Below are positions 13,239-63,541 of a stretch of 64,000 nucleotides of DNA, piece after piece (within the stretch, counting starts at the first letter, position 1; each line of letters opens with the position of its first letter). Both the position numbers and the translations under genes were made by a program. The notes under the pieces are model-generated. The model saw nothing but the letters and a program-made list of their open reading frames with translations, did no database searches and had not been told where the DNA came from. The DNA is taken from assembly GCF_000526375.1 (NCBI RefSeq), contig NZ_JAFY01000007.1, positions 372,001 to 436,000 on the forward strand. Reading direction: 5' to 3'. Source of the stretch: Aminiphilus circumscriptus DSM 16581 (GTDB lineage: Bacteria > Synergistota > Synergistia > Synergistales > Aminiphilaceae).

Positions 13239-13505
13239 ATGATTCAAAAGGAAGTCAAGCAGCAGATCATTGAAGAGTTCTCCATGCATGGATCGGACAC
13301 GGGTTCCACGGAGGTACAGGTGGCTATTCTTACCCACCGGATCCGTGAGTTGACCGAGCACATGAAAGTGCACTCCAAGGATTTTCACTCCCGGAGAGGG
13401 CTTCTCAAGATGGTCGGCAAGCGTCGTAAGCTTCTTGCCTATCTGCGGAGTCGGGATTTCGGGCGCTATCAGGCGTTGATCCAAAGGTTGGGACTCCGCC
13501 ACTGA
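13239..13505 (+). CDS. rpsO: 30S ribosomal protein S15
   Basis: An 88-residue 16S rRNA-binding protein with the S15 core ([19 protein letters not shown], then [20 protein letters not shown]). ATG 13239 is preferred because GAGG ends 8 nt before it; ATG 13233 is too close to the ribosome-binding site. It is followed by a terminator and then pnp, the classic rpsO-pnp order. Confidence 0.97.
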
Positions 13506-13529
13506 CGGAGGCCGAGAAGCGAAGGACGA

Positions 13530-13561
13530 ACGAGAGCGGGATTTCCCCGCTCTCGTTTTTC
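13530..13561 (+). terminator. Terminator between rpsO and pnp
   Basis: Stem CGAGAGCGGG / CCCGCTCTCG (13531-13540 / 13546-13555), loop ATTTC, followed by a run of five T. Partial read-through into pnp would be typical for this locus. Confidence 0.85.
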
Positions 13562-32625: not shown

Positions 32626-34104
32626 TTACACCTTGGGCTCGAACTTGTGCTTCATGTGGTCGGCCAGCCAGTTGTTCAGGGCGAAGCCGACGCCGAGAAG
32701 AATGGCCCACTGGAGGAACATGGGTGCCGGCGCGTAGTTGTACTTGGCGATGGGGAAGATCTTCCACCACTCCCCGGGATACCAGGAAATGGACTGCTGT
32801 ACCCACCAGCCGAAGATGAGAACGAACCACACCGGGAAGAGGCGGATGAGGGACCACATCCACTTTGCCTTGATGTCCGAGACGGGAGCGATGTACTCGT
32901 CCCAGATCTTGTCCACGCCGACGATCATGGCGGCAATGGCGGCGAGGAGGCCCGACATGAGCAGGCCAACGCCCCAGGTCCAGTCCATGTTCTCGAAGAT
33001 CACGTTGTCCCGGGCGGCGAAGGTCCCGATCACCAGCACCACGAGAGTGACGAGGAACAGGGACGTGCGTCGCGATTTGCCCATGTCCATGAGCATGCGG
33101 ACCCCCAGCTCGAGCATGGCGATCTCCGAGGAGAGCGCTGCCAGGATGAGGGCGCCGAAGAAGGCGACGGCCATGATCGTTCCTCCCGGCAGATTGGCGA
33201 AGAGACGGGTGAGATTAATGAAGGCCAGGCCGTTGTTGCCGCCAGCCATTGCGGCGTTGGGGTCCGGGGCGAGGGCGAAAACGGTGGGAATGACCGCCAT
33301 GCCGGCCAAGAGTGCCGCCGATGTGTCGGCGAAACAGGCCGTGCAGGCGTTGAGGAGAATGTCTTCGTCCTTCTTCGTGTAGACGAAGTAGGTGAGGAAG
33401 AGTCCCCATCCTGCGCCTGTGGACCAGGCCGCCTGGGTGAAGGCCTCGAGCCATACCTTGGGTTTCAGCAGATCCGCGGTGTTGATGTGGAAGAGGAACT
33501 TCAGTCCTTCTGTGGCGCCGGGGAGCATCATGGCTCGGATGGCGAGAAAGGCGAGGAGGACGAAAATACCGGGGATGAAGATTTTGTTTCCTTTTTCGAT
33601 ACCGTTCTGAACGCCCAGCCCTACCACGAAGGCGCACAGGGCGATGGCCGCCCAGTAGAAGTACATCCCCTGATCCGCGTTACCGAGGAAGTTGGTCCAG
33701 AGCGCTTCCGTGTCCACTCCGGCAACGAGAACACCTTGGAGAGCGAAGACCAGATAGCGAATGCACCAGCCGAGGACGACGCCGTAGTAGCAGGTGATGA
33801 AAAAGCAACAGAGGCCGAAGAACCAGCTCATCCAGGTGTACTTGCGGCCGACCAGCTCCTTGAAGGCGCCGATGCAGCCCATGCGGGTGACCTTGCCGAG
33901 GACTCCTTCCATGCAGATCAGGGGAATTGCCCAGAGGAACAAAGCGAAGAAAAGAGCGAGGATGAATGCACCACCGCCGTTGGCGGCGACGACCCGGGGG
34001 AAACGCCAGATGTTTCCCGTGCCGATGGCCATGCCCATACATGCGAACAAAAAGCCCCATTTCGAAAACTGCCCAGTGCCTTTCAACTCCGTGTTCTCCG
34101 CCAT
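32626..34104 (-). CDS. metP: Sodium-dependent transporter, NSS family (MetP-like)
   Basis: Neurotransmitter:sodium symporter family, 492 residues and about 11-12 membrane segments. The N-terminal WGFLFACMGMAIGTGNIWRF contains the sodium- and substrate-site residues of TM1, and FFGLCCFFITCYYGVVLGW matches TM3. Likely substrate is a neutral amino acid; the metS partner suggests methionine or alanine. ATG 34104 has AAGGAGGG at good spacing; the longer open frame to 34179 does not fit the family. Its promoter is predicted about 240 nt upstream. Confidence 0.9.
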   Translation of the reverse strand: MAENTELKGTGQFSKWGFLFACMGMAIGTGNIWRFPRVVAANGGGAFILALFFALFLWAIPLICMEGVLGKVTRMGCIGAFKELVGRKYTWMSWFFGLCCFFITCYYGVVLGWCIRYLVFALQGVLVAGVDTEALWTNFLGNADQGMYFYWAAIALCAFVVGLGVQNGIEKGNKIFIPGIFVLLAFLAIRAMMLPGATEGLKFLFHINTADLLKPKVWLEAFTQAAWSTGAGWGLFLTYFVYTKKDEDILLNACTACFADTSAALLAGMAVIPTVFALAPDPNAAMAGGNNGLAFINLTRLFANLPGGTIMAVAFFGALILAALSSEIAMLELGVRMLMDMGKSRRTSLFLVTLVVLVIGTFAARDNVIFENMDWTWGVGLLMSGLLAAIAAMIVGVDKIWDEYIAPVSDIKAKWMWSLIRLFPVWFVLIFGWWVQQSISWYPGEWWKIFPIAKYNYAPAPMFLQWAILLGVGFALNNWLADHMKHKFEPKV

Positions 34105-34339
34105 GAACAGGTCTCCCTCCTTAATTTCGATTTCTCTTCTTAAGGGTTTCGGGATGAGTGGTGCCATTTCGACAAGCAAGCCGATGTCCAGGAACGGTGT
34201 GCCCTATGGAGTTTTTCCGGTGAGTGGGCTGGCTGAATGGTCCTTTGCGATGAGCATTCCTCCTTTCTCGCCGGGGCCGAAACTGTACGAAAATGCCTGT
34301 ACGCAGCCCACAGGGTACAGAAGTTGCACGAACGGACCT

Positions 34340-34749: not shown

Positions 34750-34839
34750 GGAAACCCTGATCAAGTAGGAATCGCCCTCTCTCGATTTTCGATTGCATCG
34801 CGTTTTTCCGAGATCGGCACGGCATTTTTCAGAGGCTCC
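34750..34839. mobile_element. MITE-like element with IS5-family ends (90 bp)
   Basis: The left end GGAAACCCTGATCAAG and the right end (inverted) GGAGCCTCTGAAAAA match the two ends of the IS5-family element at 54002-55238 (GGAAACCCTGAACAAG and GGAATCTCTGAAAAA). It is flanked by TTAG (34746-34749) and TTAA (34840-34843), which fit the IS target rule with one mismatch. The interior is non-coding and differs from the two 100-bp elements. Confidence 0.65.
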
Positions 34840-34868: not shown

Positions 34869-34896
34869 TTGAGAGCTGGCGATGATGTGTCATAGT
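34869..34896 (+). promoter_or_regulatory. Possible promoter of the mltG operon
   Basis: TTGAGA (34869-34874) and CATAGT (34891-34896) with a 16-bp spacer. The 100-bp mobile element lies between this site and mltG. Confidence 0.35.
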
Positions 34897-34929
34897 GGGA
34901 GTCTGTTCATCGTTCGGCGGATATCTTCA

Positions 34930-35029
34930 GGAATCTCTGAATAAGGCTGCGTCAGTCCCGCAGGGCGCCTCGCAGAGCCTGATGCGACCCGAGTCAAGGG
35001 AAAGCGAAAGGCCTTTATTCAGAGCTTCC
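34930..35029. mobile_element. 100-bp MITE, copy 1
   Basis: Terminal inverted repeats GGAATCTCTGAATAA / GGAAGCTCTGAATAA bound a non-coding, hairpin-rich core (inner arms GCGTCAG / CTGATGC). The first 12 bases equal one end of the IS5-family element in this window. It is flanked by a 4-bp duplication TTCA on both sides. The copy at 51313-51412 has the same length and 6 differences. It sits in the leader of mltG. Confidence 0.85.
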
Positions 35030-35082
35030 TTCAAAACGACGCAAATGTGTGTCATGGAGAAAGAGAGGAAAGGCGGAGACGT

Positions 35083-36237
35083 ATGCGGGACAAACCAATC
35101 ACACTGCTGTTGTTTCTATTGACCGCCATGGCTTACCTGACTTTTCTTGTTCTCCCCATTTCCTGGTGGCAGGAGCGGTTGGAAATCGGACATGGGCCTT
35201 CGGTTTTCGTCATGGTCGAACCGGGCATGAGCGCCCGGGACGCCGCACGGCATTTCGTTCGGGAGGGGATTACGAGCGAGGCACAGGCCCTGTCTCGGTG
35301 GTTGACTGCCTTCGGTGTCGATCGTTCTTTGAAACCCGGGGTATATTTTCTGCGTCCGGGAAGTCCCTGGGAGGTGGCGAAACAGCTTGTGAACGCGGAA
35401 CCACGTGTCTTCCGCGTCGTTCTCGTTCCGGGGAGCGACGTGGACGTTTTTGCGCAATTTCTCGGCGACGCCGTTGCCTCCTTCTGGGAGGATGTCTCTT
35501 CTTCCAATCTCCAGGAAAAACCGTTCCCCGCGAGCGGTGATATCCTTACCGGAAAGGCCGGGGAGATGCACACGGCGCTGGCGGCGGACTCCCCTGCGCC
35601 GGGGTTCATCGTTACATCGGCGGATCTTTTCGCTGCGCTCGCGGATGAAACGCATTTCCCCGAACCGCTGCGGAAAATATTGCCGGAAGACCCCTCTGAG
35701 CGATTCGCCTTTCTTCTGCCCGAAACCTTTGTGCTTCCTCCGTCGCCTTCGCTGGCCGTCTCCCTGGTGCGTCAGGCCTCTTCTCTGTGGTGGCGCGCTT
35801 TTGCTTCTGACGTAGCGAAAAAGAGCGCGACCGAAATGCGTTCTCTGGCGACCCTCGCTTCCATCATCGAGAAGGAGATCCGCAAGGAAGAGGAACGCCC
35901 CATCGCGGCAGGAGTGTTTCAGAATCGACTGGAGCGGCAAATGCCCCTTCAGTCCTGCGCGACGGTCGTCTACGCGTGGAAACTCCAGGGGCGTATCCTT
36001 CGGACGCTGACCTACGAGGATCTCAAAATCGAATCGCCTTTCAACACCTATCTCCATCCGGGTCTGCCGCCCGGACCGATTTGTGTTCCCTCCCGAAATT
36101 CCTGGTCTGCCGCATTTCACCCCGAGGAGCACGATCTTCTCTACTTCGTGGCGGATAACAAGGGAGGGCATGTCTTTTCCCGGAGCTACAAAGAGCACTT
36201 GGATGCCCAGAGGAAAATCCGCAATGAAAATCGCTGA
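35083..36237 (+). CDS. mltG: Endolytic murein transglycosylase MltG
   Basis: Inner-membrane enzyme thought to cut nascent glycan strands and set their length. The 384 residues have one N-terminal membrane helix (about 5-25), a LysM-like region, and the YceG catalytic domain with ASIIEKE (259-265) carrying the catalytic Glu, followed by AAGVFQNRLERQMPLQSCATV and the PFNTYLHPGLPPGPICVPS segment. GGAG precedes ATG 35083. It begins an operon that runs to thiN. Confidence 0.93.
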   Translation: MRDKPITLLLFLLTAMAYLTFLVLPISWWQERLEIGHGPSVFVMVEPGMSARDAARHFVREGITSEAQALSRWLTAFGVDRSLKPGVYFLRPGSPWEVAKQLVNAEPRVFRVVLVPGSDVDVFAQFLGDAVASFWEDVSSSNLQEKPFPASGDILTGKAGEMHTALAADSPAPGFIVTSADLFAALADETHFPEPLRKILPEDPSERFAFLLPETFVLPPSPSLAVSLVRQASSLWWRAFASDVAKKSATEMRSLATLASIIEKEIRKEEERPIAAGVFQNRLERQMPLQSCATVVYAWKLQGRILRTLTYEDLKIESPFNTYLHPGLPPGPICVPSRNSWSAAFHPEEHDLLYFVADNKGGHVFSRSYKEHLDAQRKIRNENR

Positions 36238-50874: not shown

Positions 50875-51224
50875 GGGGGCGTACGGTTTCGACGGCAGGT
50901 TGGAGGGTCTGGAGGAGCAGGCCGAGGTGCCGTGACCTCGCTAAACTGCGGCAAAAACAATAATTGCCAACGATAACTTCGCACTGGCTGCCTAAGGTGT
51001 AGCCACGTTTCCTTCTTTTGTGCCGCTGGGAGGAAGAGAAACGTCACAAACAGCGGTTGCTCCGGAAAGCCCGTTCCCGTTTTTCCGGCTAAGATCAGGG
51101 AACTTGGAGTCGGCTATCCCGCCTTCGGGAGAGGCGGCTCGACATCAAAACGAAGGATAAGCCTGTAGTTGCCACCATGGCTGGCCCCTGTCGGACCGGG
51201 GTTCGATTCCCCGCGCCTCCACCA
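50875..51224 (+). ncRNA. ssrA: Transfer-messenger RNA (tmRNA)
   Basis: The 5' end GGGGGCGTACGGTTTCGACGG pairs its first seven bases with CGCCTCC before the 3' ACCA (51221-51224). The tag reading frame runs GCA (50951) to TAA (50993-50995) and encodes AKTIIANDNFALAA, ending in the usual ALAA degron. The T-arm GGTTCGATTCC is near the 3' end. Its 3' end is the likely integration site of the accessory region that follows. I quote the 5' start only as far as needed; the exact ends are predicted from pairing. Confidence 0.95.
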
Positions 51225-51233
51225 GAAGGCAAT

Positions 51234-51282
51234 AGTTGCCGCTTGGACAAGTATCATCAGTCCTTGCGGCAACTGCTTTTTT
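51234..51282 (+). terminator. tmRNA terminator
   Basis: AGTTGCCGC (51234-51242) pairs with GCGGCAACT (51266-51274), extended inside by GGAC/GTCC, followed by GC and six T. Confidence 0.85.
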
Positions 51283-51312
51283 GCATTGACTAATAAGCCG
51301 CATTATCTCTAA

Positions 51313-51412
51313 GAAATCTCTGAATAAGGCTGCGTCAGCCCCGCAGGGCGCCTCGCAGAGCCTGATGCGATCCGAGTCAAGGAAAAGCCAAAGGTCTTTA
51401 TTCAGAGCTTCC
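51313..51412. mobile_element. 100-bp MITE, copy 2
   Basis: Same length as the copy at 34930-35029, with six substitutions and no gaps. It is flanked by a perfect 4-bp duplication CTAA (51309-51312 and 51413-51416). The left end GAAATCTCTGAATAA has one change from GGAATCTCTGAATAA. It lies between the tmRNA terminator and the broken integrase. Confidence 0.85.
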
Positions 51413-51421
51413 CTAATATTA

Positions 51422-51495
51422 CCCTAAGCACCGCACCAAACGGACACATTTCCGGACACGCTTTTGGAGGTGTTTCCGAAGTGTCCGACTTAGGG
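51422..51495. repeat. Imperfect 74-bp inverted repeat next to the integrase
   Basis: CCCTAAG (51422-51428) matches CTTAGGG (51489-51495) in inverse, and inside them CGGACACATTTCCGGACAC (51441-51459) resembles the inverse of GTGTTTCCGAAGTGTCCG (51470-51487). It may be a recombinase or excisionase binding region, or part of the integrase promoter. Confidence 0.5.
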
Positions 51496-51503
51496 GGAGA
51501 AAT

Positions 51504-52654
51504 GCGATACTTACTGACGTGACGATTTGTCGTTTGGCTCCGAAGGAGAAGAGATACTCCATTCTGGATTCGGAGCGGAGGGACTTTACATTGAGGTCCT
51601 GCCTGGCGGAGGCAAGCATTGGCGTCTGAGGAAGCAGGTGTAGGGCCAAGAGGTCCGCCGGTCCCTGGGGAAGTACCCCAAAATCGGGTTACGGGAGGCG
51701 CGACGCCTCGGGGATCAGCTTGCCGAGGAACTCGAACGCAACGGATTGCAGGTAAATCGGGCCGACAGTTTTGAATCCGTCGCACAGAAATGGCTGAAGA
51801 TGATGGAGAAAAGTCGGACACATGGGCACGTCAGGACGGTCACATCCCGACTTGATCGACTGATCCTCCCATTCATCGGGAAAAAACCGGTTGCCGACAT
51901 CGTTACGGGTGGCATACTCTCCTTGGCGAAAAAGGAAGAGGCCGCCGGCCGGATCGAAACGGCCCACAGGGTCATGCAGATCTGCGGCCAGATCATGCGT
52001 TATGCCGTCGCCACAGGCCGGACTGACATGGACCCAACCTCAAGCCTGAAGGAATCTCTCGTTTCAGGGAACCCGGAACATTTTCCGACGATGACGAACC
52101 CCGAGCAGATCGGCGGACTTCTCCGGGTCATCGACAGCCTCAACGGTTCACCGATTGTTTGTTGTGCCGTCAAACTGCAGATCCTCACCTTCGTCCGCCC
52201 GGGCGAACTGAGGTTGGCCGAGTGGAGTGAGATCTCGAAAACGGAATGGAAAATCCCTCCGGAACGCATGAAGATGCGTCGCCCTCACATTGTCCCCCTT
52301 TCAGCTCAAGCCCTTGCTGTTTTGGACGAGTTGAGGCCCGTCACAAACAGCAAATCCCGATACCTTTTTCCATCAATCCGCGATTTCAGGCGTCCCATGA
52401 GCGATATGACAATCAATGCCGCCCTGAGACGCATGGGCTACAGCCAGCAGGAATTGACTGGCCACAGCTTTCGATCCATGGCCAGCACGATTCTCAACGG
52501 GAACGGCTGGCCGCCGGATGTGATCGAGAGGCAGTTGGTGCATATCGAGAGGAATACCGTCCGCGCCGCCTACAACCATGCCGAGCATCTGGAGAAGCGG
52601 CGGGAGATGATGCAGTGGTGGGGAGCGTGGTTTGAGGACCAGATGGGAAAATAA
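51504..52654 (+). pseudogene. P4-type tyrosine integrase, disrupted
   Basis: The integrase of the element at the tmRNA 3' end. Its N-terminal DUF4102-like domain is broken twice: LTDVTICRLAPKEKRYSILD is read in one frame (51510-51569), GLYIEVLPGGGKHWRLRKQV continues in another, and then an in-frame TAG (51641-51643) interrupts before GQEVRRSLGKYPKIGLREAR. The remaining frame to 52654 (302 codons from TTG 51746) keeps the whole catalytic domain, with Arg in VRPGELR, the HSFR box and the Tyr in RAAYNHA. Either a dead integrase or a truncated catalytic fragment is made. The exact 5' end is approximate. Confidence 0.8.
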
Positions 52655-54001: not shown

Positions 54002-55238
54002 GGAAACCCTGAACAAGCTTCTCTAAAAATGTTCACAGCGGGAGGAAAAGAGGAAATGCCCCGCAAAGACCACGTTTCCCGCACCTTTGGCAGCGAAACG
54101 TGAGGAATTATCTCCGTCTTCCAACCCTTTTTAACCCCGGTAGCGATTTTTAGAGACACTACCCCCCTGTGGACAGGAGAAAACCTCTCGCCATGTAGAG
54201 ATTGCACAGAGCGAAGAGCACGTACACGACACCGGTATTTTTGGCGAGACCTTTATAGCGCACTTTGGTGAATCCGAAGACGCATTTGACGACGTGGAAG
54301 ACATGTTCAACCCGCGAACGGACTTTTGAAAGAAGACGGTTTTGCTCTTTCTCTTCTTCGGTGAGCTTTTTGTGCTTCGTGGCTCTTTTTTGGGTATAAT
54401 CCACGGCGCGCGGGGCTTTCGTCCGGATCTCTTCGGTTTTGCCCATGTAGGCCGAATCTCCCCGGACTTCTTTTTCTTCTCCGTGCAGGAGTTCACCGAT
54501 TCGGGTGGAGTCGTGCACGTTCGCCGGAGTGGTGACGAGACTGTGGACCTGTTTGCTTTCCTTGTCCACACCGACATGGACTTTCATACCGAAGTAGTAC
54601 TGGTTGCCCTTCTTCGTGGAATGCATCTCCGGGTCGCGTTTCTTCTCCCGGTTTTTCGTCGATGAAGGAGCATGGATGATCGTGGCATCCACGATGGTTC
54701 CCTCGGAGAGTTTTAAGCCCCGGGAGGCGAGATGAAGATTCACCGCCTCGAAGAGTTTCTCTGCGAGCTTGTGGGTTTCCAGAAGATGGCGGAACTTGCA
54801 AATCGTGGTCTCGTCCGGAACGGGTTCGTTGCCGAGATCGATACGGGCGAAGCGCCGCATGGACTCCACGTCATAGAGGGCTTCTTCTACACCCCTATCG
54901 CTGAGGTTGAACCAGTTCTGGAGAAAGTGGATCCGGAGCATTCTCTCCAGCCCTATGGGAGGACGTCCTCTTCCCTCTTTCGGATAGAAGGGTTCGAGAC
55001 GAGCGCAAAGCTCTTTCCAAGGAACTATCTGTTCCATTTCGGCGAGAAAGAGTTCCCGTTTGGTGGGTTTTCGGTATTTCTCGAACGAAATGGCGCTCGC
55101 GAAAGTTTTCTGTCGCTTCATCGTACCTCAGCCCCCTGGAAAGAAGGTCGCACCGGAGGAACATGGTGGCTTTGGGATTCATTTTACGGTCTCAAGGAAA
55201 AAACGGCGACATCCGCGCGGAGTTTTTCAGAGATTCCT
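54002..55238. mobile_element. IS5-family insertion sequence, copy A
   Basis: A 1237-bp element with ends GGAAACCCTGAACAA and (inverted) GGAATCTCTGAAAAA, 12 of 15 positions alike, flanked by TTAA on both sides (53998-54001 and 55239-55242). It holds one transposase gene on the minus strand. A second copy at 62306-63541 is inverted and differs, as far as I can see, by a single base in an A/T run. Confidence 0.92.
54159..55121 (-). CDS. IS5-family transposase (copy A)
   Basis: A 320-residue DDE transposase. It has the N-terminal helix-turn-helix region (GRPPIGLERMLRIHFLQNWF), the first catalytic Asp in GTIVDATIIHAPSS, the second in RGDSAYMG, and the Glu in SRVEHVFHVVKCVFG, the YREK-like block of IS5. 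The sequence is complete with no stop, so the element is likely active. It is identical to the transposase of copy B. Confidence 0.95.
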   Translation of the reverse strand: MKRQKTFASAISFEKYRKPTKRELFLAEMEQIVPWKELCARLEPFYPKEGRGRPPIGLERMLRIHFLQNWFNLSDRGVEEALYDVESMRRFARIDLGNEPVPDETTICKFRHLLETHKLAEKLFEAVNLHLASRGLKLSEGTIVDATIIHAPSSTKNREKKRDPEMHSTKKGNQYYFGMKVHVGVDKESKQVHSLVTTPANVHDSTRIGELLHGEEKEVRGDSAYMGKTEEIRTKAPRAVDYTQKRATKHKKLTEEEKEQNRLLSKVRSRVEHVFHVVKCVFGFTKVRYKGLAKNTGVVYVLFALCNLYMARGFLLSTGG

Positions 55239-62305: not shown

Positions 62306-63541
62306 GGAATCTCTGAAAAACTCCGCGCGGATGTCGCCGTTTTTTCCTTGAGACCGTAAAATGAATCCCAAAGCCACCATGTTCCTCCGGTGCGACCTTC
62401 TTTCCAGGGGGCTGAGGTACGATGAAGCGACAGAAAACTTTCGCGAGCGCCATTTCGTTCGAGAAATACCGAAAACCCACCAAACGGGAACTCTTTCTCG
62501 CCGAAATGGAACAGATAGTTCCTTGGAAAGAGCTTTGCGCTCGTCTCGAACCCTTCTATCCGAAAGAGGGAAGAGGACGTCCTCCCATAGGGCTGGAGAG
62601 AATGCTCCGGATCCACTTTCTCCAGAACTGGTTCAACCTCAGCGATAGGGGTGTAGAAGAAGCCCTCTATGACGTGGAGTCCATGCGGCGCTTCGCCCGT
62701 ATCGATCTCGGCAACGAACCCGTTCCGGACGAGACCACGATTTGCAAGTTCCGCCATCTTCTGGAAACCCACAAGCTCGCAGAGAAACTCTTCGAGGCGG
62801 TGAATCTTCATCTCGCCTCCCGGGGCTTAAAACTCTCCGAGGGAACCATCGTGGATGCCACGATCATCCATGCTCCTTCATCGACGAAAAACCGGGAGAA
62901 GAAACGCGACCCGGAGATGCATTCCACGAAGAAGGGCAACCAGTACTACTTCGGTATGAAAGTCCATGTCGGTGTGGACAAGGAAAGCAAACAGGTCCAC
63001 AGTCTCGTCACCACTCCGGCGAACGTGCACGACTCCACCCGAATCGGTGAACTCCTGCACGGAGAAGAAAAAGAAGTCCGGGGAGATTCGGCCTACATGG
63101 GCAAAACCGAAGAGATCCGGACGAAAGCCCCGCGCGCCGTGGATTATACCCAAAAAAGAGCCACGAAGCACAAAAAGCTCACCGAAGAAGAGAAAGAGCA
63201 AAACCGTCTTCTTTCAAAAGTCCGTTCGCGGGTTGAACATGTCTTCCACGTCGTCAAATGCGTCTTCGGATTCACCAAAGTGCGCTATAAAGGTCTCGCC
63301 AAAAATACCGGTGTCGTGTACGTGCTCTTCGCTCTGTGCAATCTCTACATGGCGAGAGGTTTTCTCCTGTCCACAGGGGGGTAGTGTCTCTAAAAATCGC
63401 TACCGGGGTTAAAAAGGGTTGGAAGACGGAGATAATTCCTCACGTTTCGCTGCCAAAGGTGCGGGAAACGTGGTCTTTGCGGGGCATTTCCTCTTTTCCT
63501 CCCGCTGTGAACATTTTTAGAGAAGCTTGTTCAGGGTTTCC
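62306..63541. mobile_element. IS5-family insertion sequence, copy B
   Basis: A 1236-bp element, inverted relative to copy A, flanked by TTAA (62302-62305 and 63542-63545). The six-base T run at 62340-62345 is seven in the complement of copy A; I see no other difference, and the transposases are identical. Confidence 0.92.
62422..63384 (+). CDS. IS5-family transposase (copy B)
   Basis: A 320-residue DDE transposase identical to that of copy A, with the catalytic Asp in IVDATIIH, Asp in RGDSAYMG and Glu in SRVEHVFHVV. The start MKRQKTFASAISFEKYRKPT follows a weak GGGGGCTGAGG. Full length with no frameshift. Confidence 0.95.
   Translation: MKRQKTFASAISFEKYRKPTKRELFLAEMEQIVPWKELCARLEPFYPKEGRGRPPIGLERMLRIHFLQNWFNLSDRGVEEALYDVESMRRFARIDLGNEPVPDETTICKFRHLLETHKLAEKLFEAVNLHLASRGLKLSEGTIVDATIIHAPSSTKNREKKRDPEMHSTKKGNQYYFGMKVHVGVDKESKQVHSLVTTPANVHDSTRIGELLHGEEKEVRGDSAYMGKTEEIRTKAPRAVDYTQKRATKHKKLTEEEKEQNRLLSKVRSRVEHVFHVVKCVFGFTKVRYKGLAKNTGVVYVLFALCNLYMARGFLLSTGG

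Follow-up and report, generated by a model that had tools for sequence, protein, structure and literature searches.

The leader of mltG in Aminiphilus circumscriptus DSM 16581 contains a non-coding sequence of 100 bp that recurs, with few changes, elsewhere in the same 64,000-nucleotide stretch of DNA (contig NZ_JAFY01000007.1, positions 372,001 to 436,000; hereafter, the window), which raises the question of what kind of element this is and which transposase, if any, has spread it. A sequence-only reading of the window had proposed a MITE family mobilised by a resident IS5-family element. The family is termed M1 below, and its copies, flanks, orthologous sites and candidate transposase source are described in turn.

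Two copies of M1 in the window

M1 copy 1 occupies positions 34930-35029 on the + strand, between TTCA at 34926-34929 and a matching 4-mer at 35030-35033, and exhibits 97-99% identity to many copies in the genome. Copy 2 occupies positions 51313-51412, also on the + strand, and its flanking 4-mers read CTAA at both 51309-51312 and 51413-51416. The two copies are identical at 94 of 100 positions and differ at six. On its left, copy 1 reads GGAATCTCTGAA, the same 12 bases with which the IS at 62306 opens; the left end of copy 2, GAAATCTCTGAA, departs from this by one change, and the right end GGAAGCTCTGAA is common to both copies. Read as terminal inverted repeats, the M1 ends GGAATCTCTGAATAA and GGAAGCTCTGAATAA match at 14 of 15 positions. 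M1 folds strongly (z = -3.5, on one strand) and, at 100 bp, is too short to encode a transposase. The sequence-only reading was therefore accurate as to the position, ends, individual duplications, fold and non-coding nature of the two copies, as well as to the TTAA that flanks both IS copies in the window.

Copy 1 lies between a divergent gene of the sodium:neurotransmitter symporter family (32626-34179, minus strand) and mltG, which encodes a YceG-like lytic transglycosylase (35083-36237, + strand; PF02618, TIGR00247). The mltG start is probably the ATG at 35083, chosen because the ribosome-binding-like sequence AGGCGGAG lies just upstream, where the sister species conserves it too; this likely start is 53 bp downstream of the end of copy 1, in agreement with the proposed placement of the copy in the mltG leader. 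Copy 2 sits between the tmRNA gene and a gene for a tyrosine integrase (50875-52654 for the region as a whole), a segment that is likely to be an ssrA-integrated island. A search for the attR of the tmRNA-linked integrase found no second tmRNA 3' end within the window.

Copy number and sequence divergence

The genome spans 3.22 Mb in 7 contigs, and a genome-wide search with the 100-bp sequence, the check proposed with the sequence-only reading, returned about 120 copies. A left-end pattern of 21 bases, with up to two mismatches allowed, matched 118 times, 61 in forward and 57 in reverse orientation, and the reversed-pattern control matched 0 times. From the genome stretches, 114 distinct copies were read together with their flanks, 107 of which are near full length and 72 of which are exactly 100 bp. 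The consensus is GGAATCTCTGAATAAGGCTGCGTCAGCCCCGCAGGGCGCCTCGCAGAGCCTGATGCGACCCGAGTCAAGGGAAAGCGAAAGGTCTTTATTCAGAGCTTCC (100 bp), to which the copies have a median identity of 95%; an identical twin is present for 4 of the 72 copies of exactly 100 bp. M1 makes up roughly 0.37% of the genome, and its length and lack of a transposase gene place it among short elements of the MITE size range (50-1000 bp). On the 141-kb contig C1 (105000-124999), MITE copies and 90-bp elements are densely clustered, together with partial tandem arrays.

Target site duplications

Flanking 4-mers were listed for the near-full-length copies, and a perfect 4-bp duplication was present at 70 of the 107, compared with 2.8% when partners were shuffled and with 1/107 at the next 4-mers outward. 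Matching flanks of other lengths were found at few copies (9 of the 107 at 2 bp, 8 at 3 bp, 2 at 5 bp and 1 at 6 bp). Perfect duplications are absent from the remaining 37/107 copies, which fits decay, nesting or recombination. By position, the majority bases in the duplication are T/C, T, A and A/G, or YTAR, and exact YTAR accounts for 17 of the 70 duplications but 0.18% of flanking positions. YTAR is the conserved target motif of IS5 (PMC10359306), and M1 thus possesses the 4-bp YTAR target duplication that is expected of an element mobilised by an IS5-family transposase. Of the IS copies in the same genome, three are flanked by TTAA and one by AAAG; TTAA and CTAA flank related IS elsewhere in the order.

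Empty sites and distribution

The comparison is provided by the genome of a sister species, in all likelihood Synergistaceae bacterium UBA5560; the MltG homologue of UBA5560 is 92% identical, and one of its contigs is ~93% identical to the window over 21 kb. To compare insertion sites, joined flanks of 300 bp were aligned with about 1.27 Mb of sequence from the sister, parts of which overlap, and 24 copies could be bridged in it. In keeping with the expectation of empty sites in sister strains, 19 of these 24 comparable sites are better read as empty in UBA5560, and the mltG site is empty as well. Six are clean empty sites at which the sister flanks overlap by exactly 4 bp (rows 26, 31, 48, 56, 100 and 102), and five of these six carry perfect duplications in A. 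circumscriptus. When both the 100-bp and the 90-bp element are cut out, the mltG leader aligns through to the orthologous sister leader, which has a single TTCA. The site orthologous to copy 2, beside the tmRNA gene, is a run of N in the sister assembly and lies outside the comparison. At one site (row 78; L193 15940 and L151 10733) both species carry a copy of M1, and the two copies are oppositely oriented and have duplications that are complementary, CTGT and ACAG, reflecting either independent insertion or inversion. M1 is therefore both dispersed in many copies and missing from orthologous sites, as expected of a MITE.

Among 61 genomes, M1 matches were found only in A. circumscriptus and UBA5560. 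M1 was located at 7 places in the sister, a lower bound given an assembly of 130 contigs and 81% completeness; the empty sites are independent of this completeness. A strict end-to-end pattern found 65 elements in A. circumscriptus, 8 in the sister, 0 in the 59 other genomes of the order and 0 in controls, and the same strict pattern found no similar palindromic elements in two relatives with a related IS (G017 and G025). Searches of phages, plasmids and viral contigs gave no match to M1. Neither outcome that had been named as evidence against a transposon was encountered: duplications are present at most copies, and the family occurs in two species of one genus only, with no position conserved across genera, given its absence from the 59 other genomes and from most comparable sister sites.

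The resident IS5-family element

The candidate transposase source is an IS5-family element of 1236 bp at 54002-55237 on the - strand (transposase 54159-55121), with an identical second copy at 62306-63541 on the + strand (transposase 62422-63384), both with the duplication TTAA noted above. Its transposase of 320 aa belongs to the IS5 family (NF033581, transpos_IS5_4; 364.6 bits, cut-off 140), and the genome contains four copies with identical transposases, together with relics. The IS ends are GGAATCTCTGAAAAAC and GGAAACCCTGAACAAG. Compared with the IS left end, M1 matches at 14/16 positions on its left and 13/16 on its right, and these matches were equalled by 0 (left) and 3e-5 (right) of 200,000 shuffles. 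Homology is confined to the 12-15 terminal bases, and the M1 core matches nothing in the IS; M1 has only the ends in common with it and lacks the transposase. The likeness of the ends is that expected of an element mobilised by IS5, but it is short and is supportive rather than proof. The genome's remaining PF01609 transposases differ in type and lie in frames of 615 and 483 aa; in a survey with PF01609 and IS5 queries, no IS other than the resident 1236-bp element combined matching ends with the 4-bp duplication and the target.

The source of the M1 transposase is therefore likely to be the resident IS or a decayed relative or ancestor of it, judging from sequence comparison, with the ends, duplication and target suggesting that such a transposase acts on M1 in trans. 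All four intact IS transposases have the same sequence, indicating that the copies are young, whereas M1 has a median identity of only 95% to its consensus. Divergence is thus greater among the M1 copies than among those of the IS; much of the spread may be older than this exact IS and have relied on a relative that has since decayed, and ancestors of the IS probably drove it at least in part. At one locus (L069, 1341-2691) the IS abuts a 112-bp MITE variant, CTAG flanking the pair on either side and TTAG separating its members; the two possibly moved as one unit, or the middle duplication possibly mutated.

Further families with similar ends

A second MITE family of 90 bp, M2, is represented in the window at 34750-34839 on the + strand, directly upstream of M1 copy 1, with ends that resemble both IS ends and with the flanks TTAG and TTAA, which differ by one mismatch; the corresponding leader of UBA5560 lacks this copy. 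M2 has 25 matches in A. circumscriptus and 13 in the sister species, and perfect 4-bp duplications flank 8 of the 12 full copies that were read. On contig C7, an M2 copy (13437-13524) is nested in an M1 copy (region about 13362-13554; L178 5363-5555) and has its own duplication, TTTC, which shows the order of the two insertions. Another end of this type adjoins 11 of the 114 M1 copies. A third set, GGAACCTCTGAAAAACGCC...CATCAGAGCTTCC, of 82-94 bp, was found in both species.

Gene context and alternative explanations

M1 insertions avoid genes. With the element and one duplication cut out beforehand, 13 of 59 classifiable insertions fell in called genes, mostly near the gene end, compared with 282 of 356 random positions; the genes were called by a simple codon-usage caller, which is crude (67% of the window called), such that only the contrast between insertions and random positions is meaningful. 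This intergenic placement, together with the strong fold of one strand, could also be expected of a conserved structured RNA or a regulatory repeat of the REP, ERIC or riboswitch-like kind that had spread in some other way and was retained for its function, but such an identity is extremely unlikely. M1 has no Rfam match, tRNA and tmRNA being the only matches elsewhere in the window, and both of its orientations are equally common. Change per site is 0.064 at paired core positions and 0.023 at unpaired positions, double-sided changes occur in only 4 of 175 deviating core-pair cells, and no maintenance of pairs by compensatory change was found in M1. Transitions make up 271 of 325 changes, and the pattern of substitution looks like neutral decay rather than structural conservation, while the good fold of the M1 strand is as expected of an inverted repeat. 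The sister sites, moreover, are empty and the duplications are of transposon type; a structured or regulatory RNA was rejected on the substitution pattern and the empty sites. A narrower proposal gives the copy in the mltG leader a co-opted regulatory role, as a hairpin of the 5' untranslated region or through a change of promoter. Copy 1 does fold stably, 53 bp separate it from the likely start codon, and a promoter-like match precedes it at 34869-34896. That match, however, is a consensus hit only, the copy shows no sign of selection and is missing from the sister, and other copies lie in all types of intergenic region with no evident orientation rule, so that co-option at mltG is regarded as very unlikely.

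A closer competitor accepts M1 as a MITE but attributes its amplification to a different IS5-type element, lost or decayed, with the resident IS just having the same ends. The average M1 copy is older than the IS copies, which are identical; the genome also contains several decayed relics of IS whose ends are similar, and the sister, which has a broken IS copy and none intact, nevertheless carries both M1 and M2. Some M1 copies, however, are 99-100% identical to another copy, suggesting fairly recent activity, and the relics that are seen share the lineage and the ends of the resident IS and are covered by a source that is either the resident IS or its ancestor. A different amplifying element is accordingly possible, though doubtful.

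Proposed mode of spread

The MITE reading is borne out by the copies, duplications, empty sites and genus-restricted distribution, and M1 is very likely a non-autonomous transposon of IS5 type, classed as a type II MITE, for which the transposase likely came from the resident 1236-bp IS or its ancestor. In the proposed mechanism, an IS5-family transposase would recognise in trans the 15-bp imperfect inverted ends of M1 (GGAANCTCTGAATAA), and M1 would be joined to a staggered 4-bp target, with YTAR preferred, such that a 4-bp duplication is left. The transposase would be supplied by the resident IS or by an ancestor that is now seen only as relics, and in this one species M1 has reached about 120 copies, most of which are intergenic. 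The cut-and-join chemistry is presumed by analogy to the IS5 family in general, and transposition of M1 may or may not still go on. A stronger version, in which amplification is both ongoing and self-reinforcing, with flanking YTAR sites becoming the next targets to give tandem or nested arrays of 100-bp elements, 90-bp elements and IS, and with the intergenic load changing the expression of neighbours such as mltG, is unlikely.

Relation to known elements

The closest described relative found is MITEPsy1 of Pseudomonas syringae, a non-coding element of 100 nt with inverted ends GGAAGGTCTGAAAAAGCC and a 4-nt duplication of CTAG or YTAA, which was attributed to the IS5-family ISPsy2, is present in 6 copies in P. 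syringae 1448A and was trapped moving in vivo (PMC3189936). MITEPsy1 and M1 are alike in being exactly 100 nt long, in their ends (GGAAGGTCTGAAAAAGCC and GGAATCTCTGAATAAGGC, respectively) and in their target, but differ in copy number (6 as opposed to about 120) and in that transposition of MITEPsy1 was trapped experimentally, whereas for M1 we infer it. With respect to the core, MITEPsy1 was compared by description, and a plasmid search with M1 gave no match, so that no similarity between the cores was seen. BrickBuilt, MITE239 and MITE464/PgRS of Porphyromonas gingivalis are also non-autonomous, IS5-family-related elements, the ends of which, like those of M1, match IS5-family elements of their own genome; they differ from M1 in being larger, in numbering around 10-20 copies and in having other end sequences, and the duplications of BrickBuilt are irregular (PMC4596501).

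In copy number, M1 is comparable to the Correia element of Neisseria, which likewise lacks a transposase. The Correia element is 204 bp as first described, and its ends differ from those of M1. More than 120 copies of this transposase-free element are present in N. gonorrhoeae (PMC10969869).

No MITE described in Synergistota was found in the literature (open-licence papers). Apart from its unusual abundance, M1 is an ordinary example of an already known type of element, and it leaves the understanding of such elements unchanged. It adds an unusually abundant IS5-type MITE for Synergistota, with a clear before-and-after comparison to a sister species, and constitutes a clean study case in which a 100-bp parasite is about 30 times as numerous as its intact helper.
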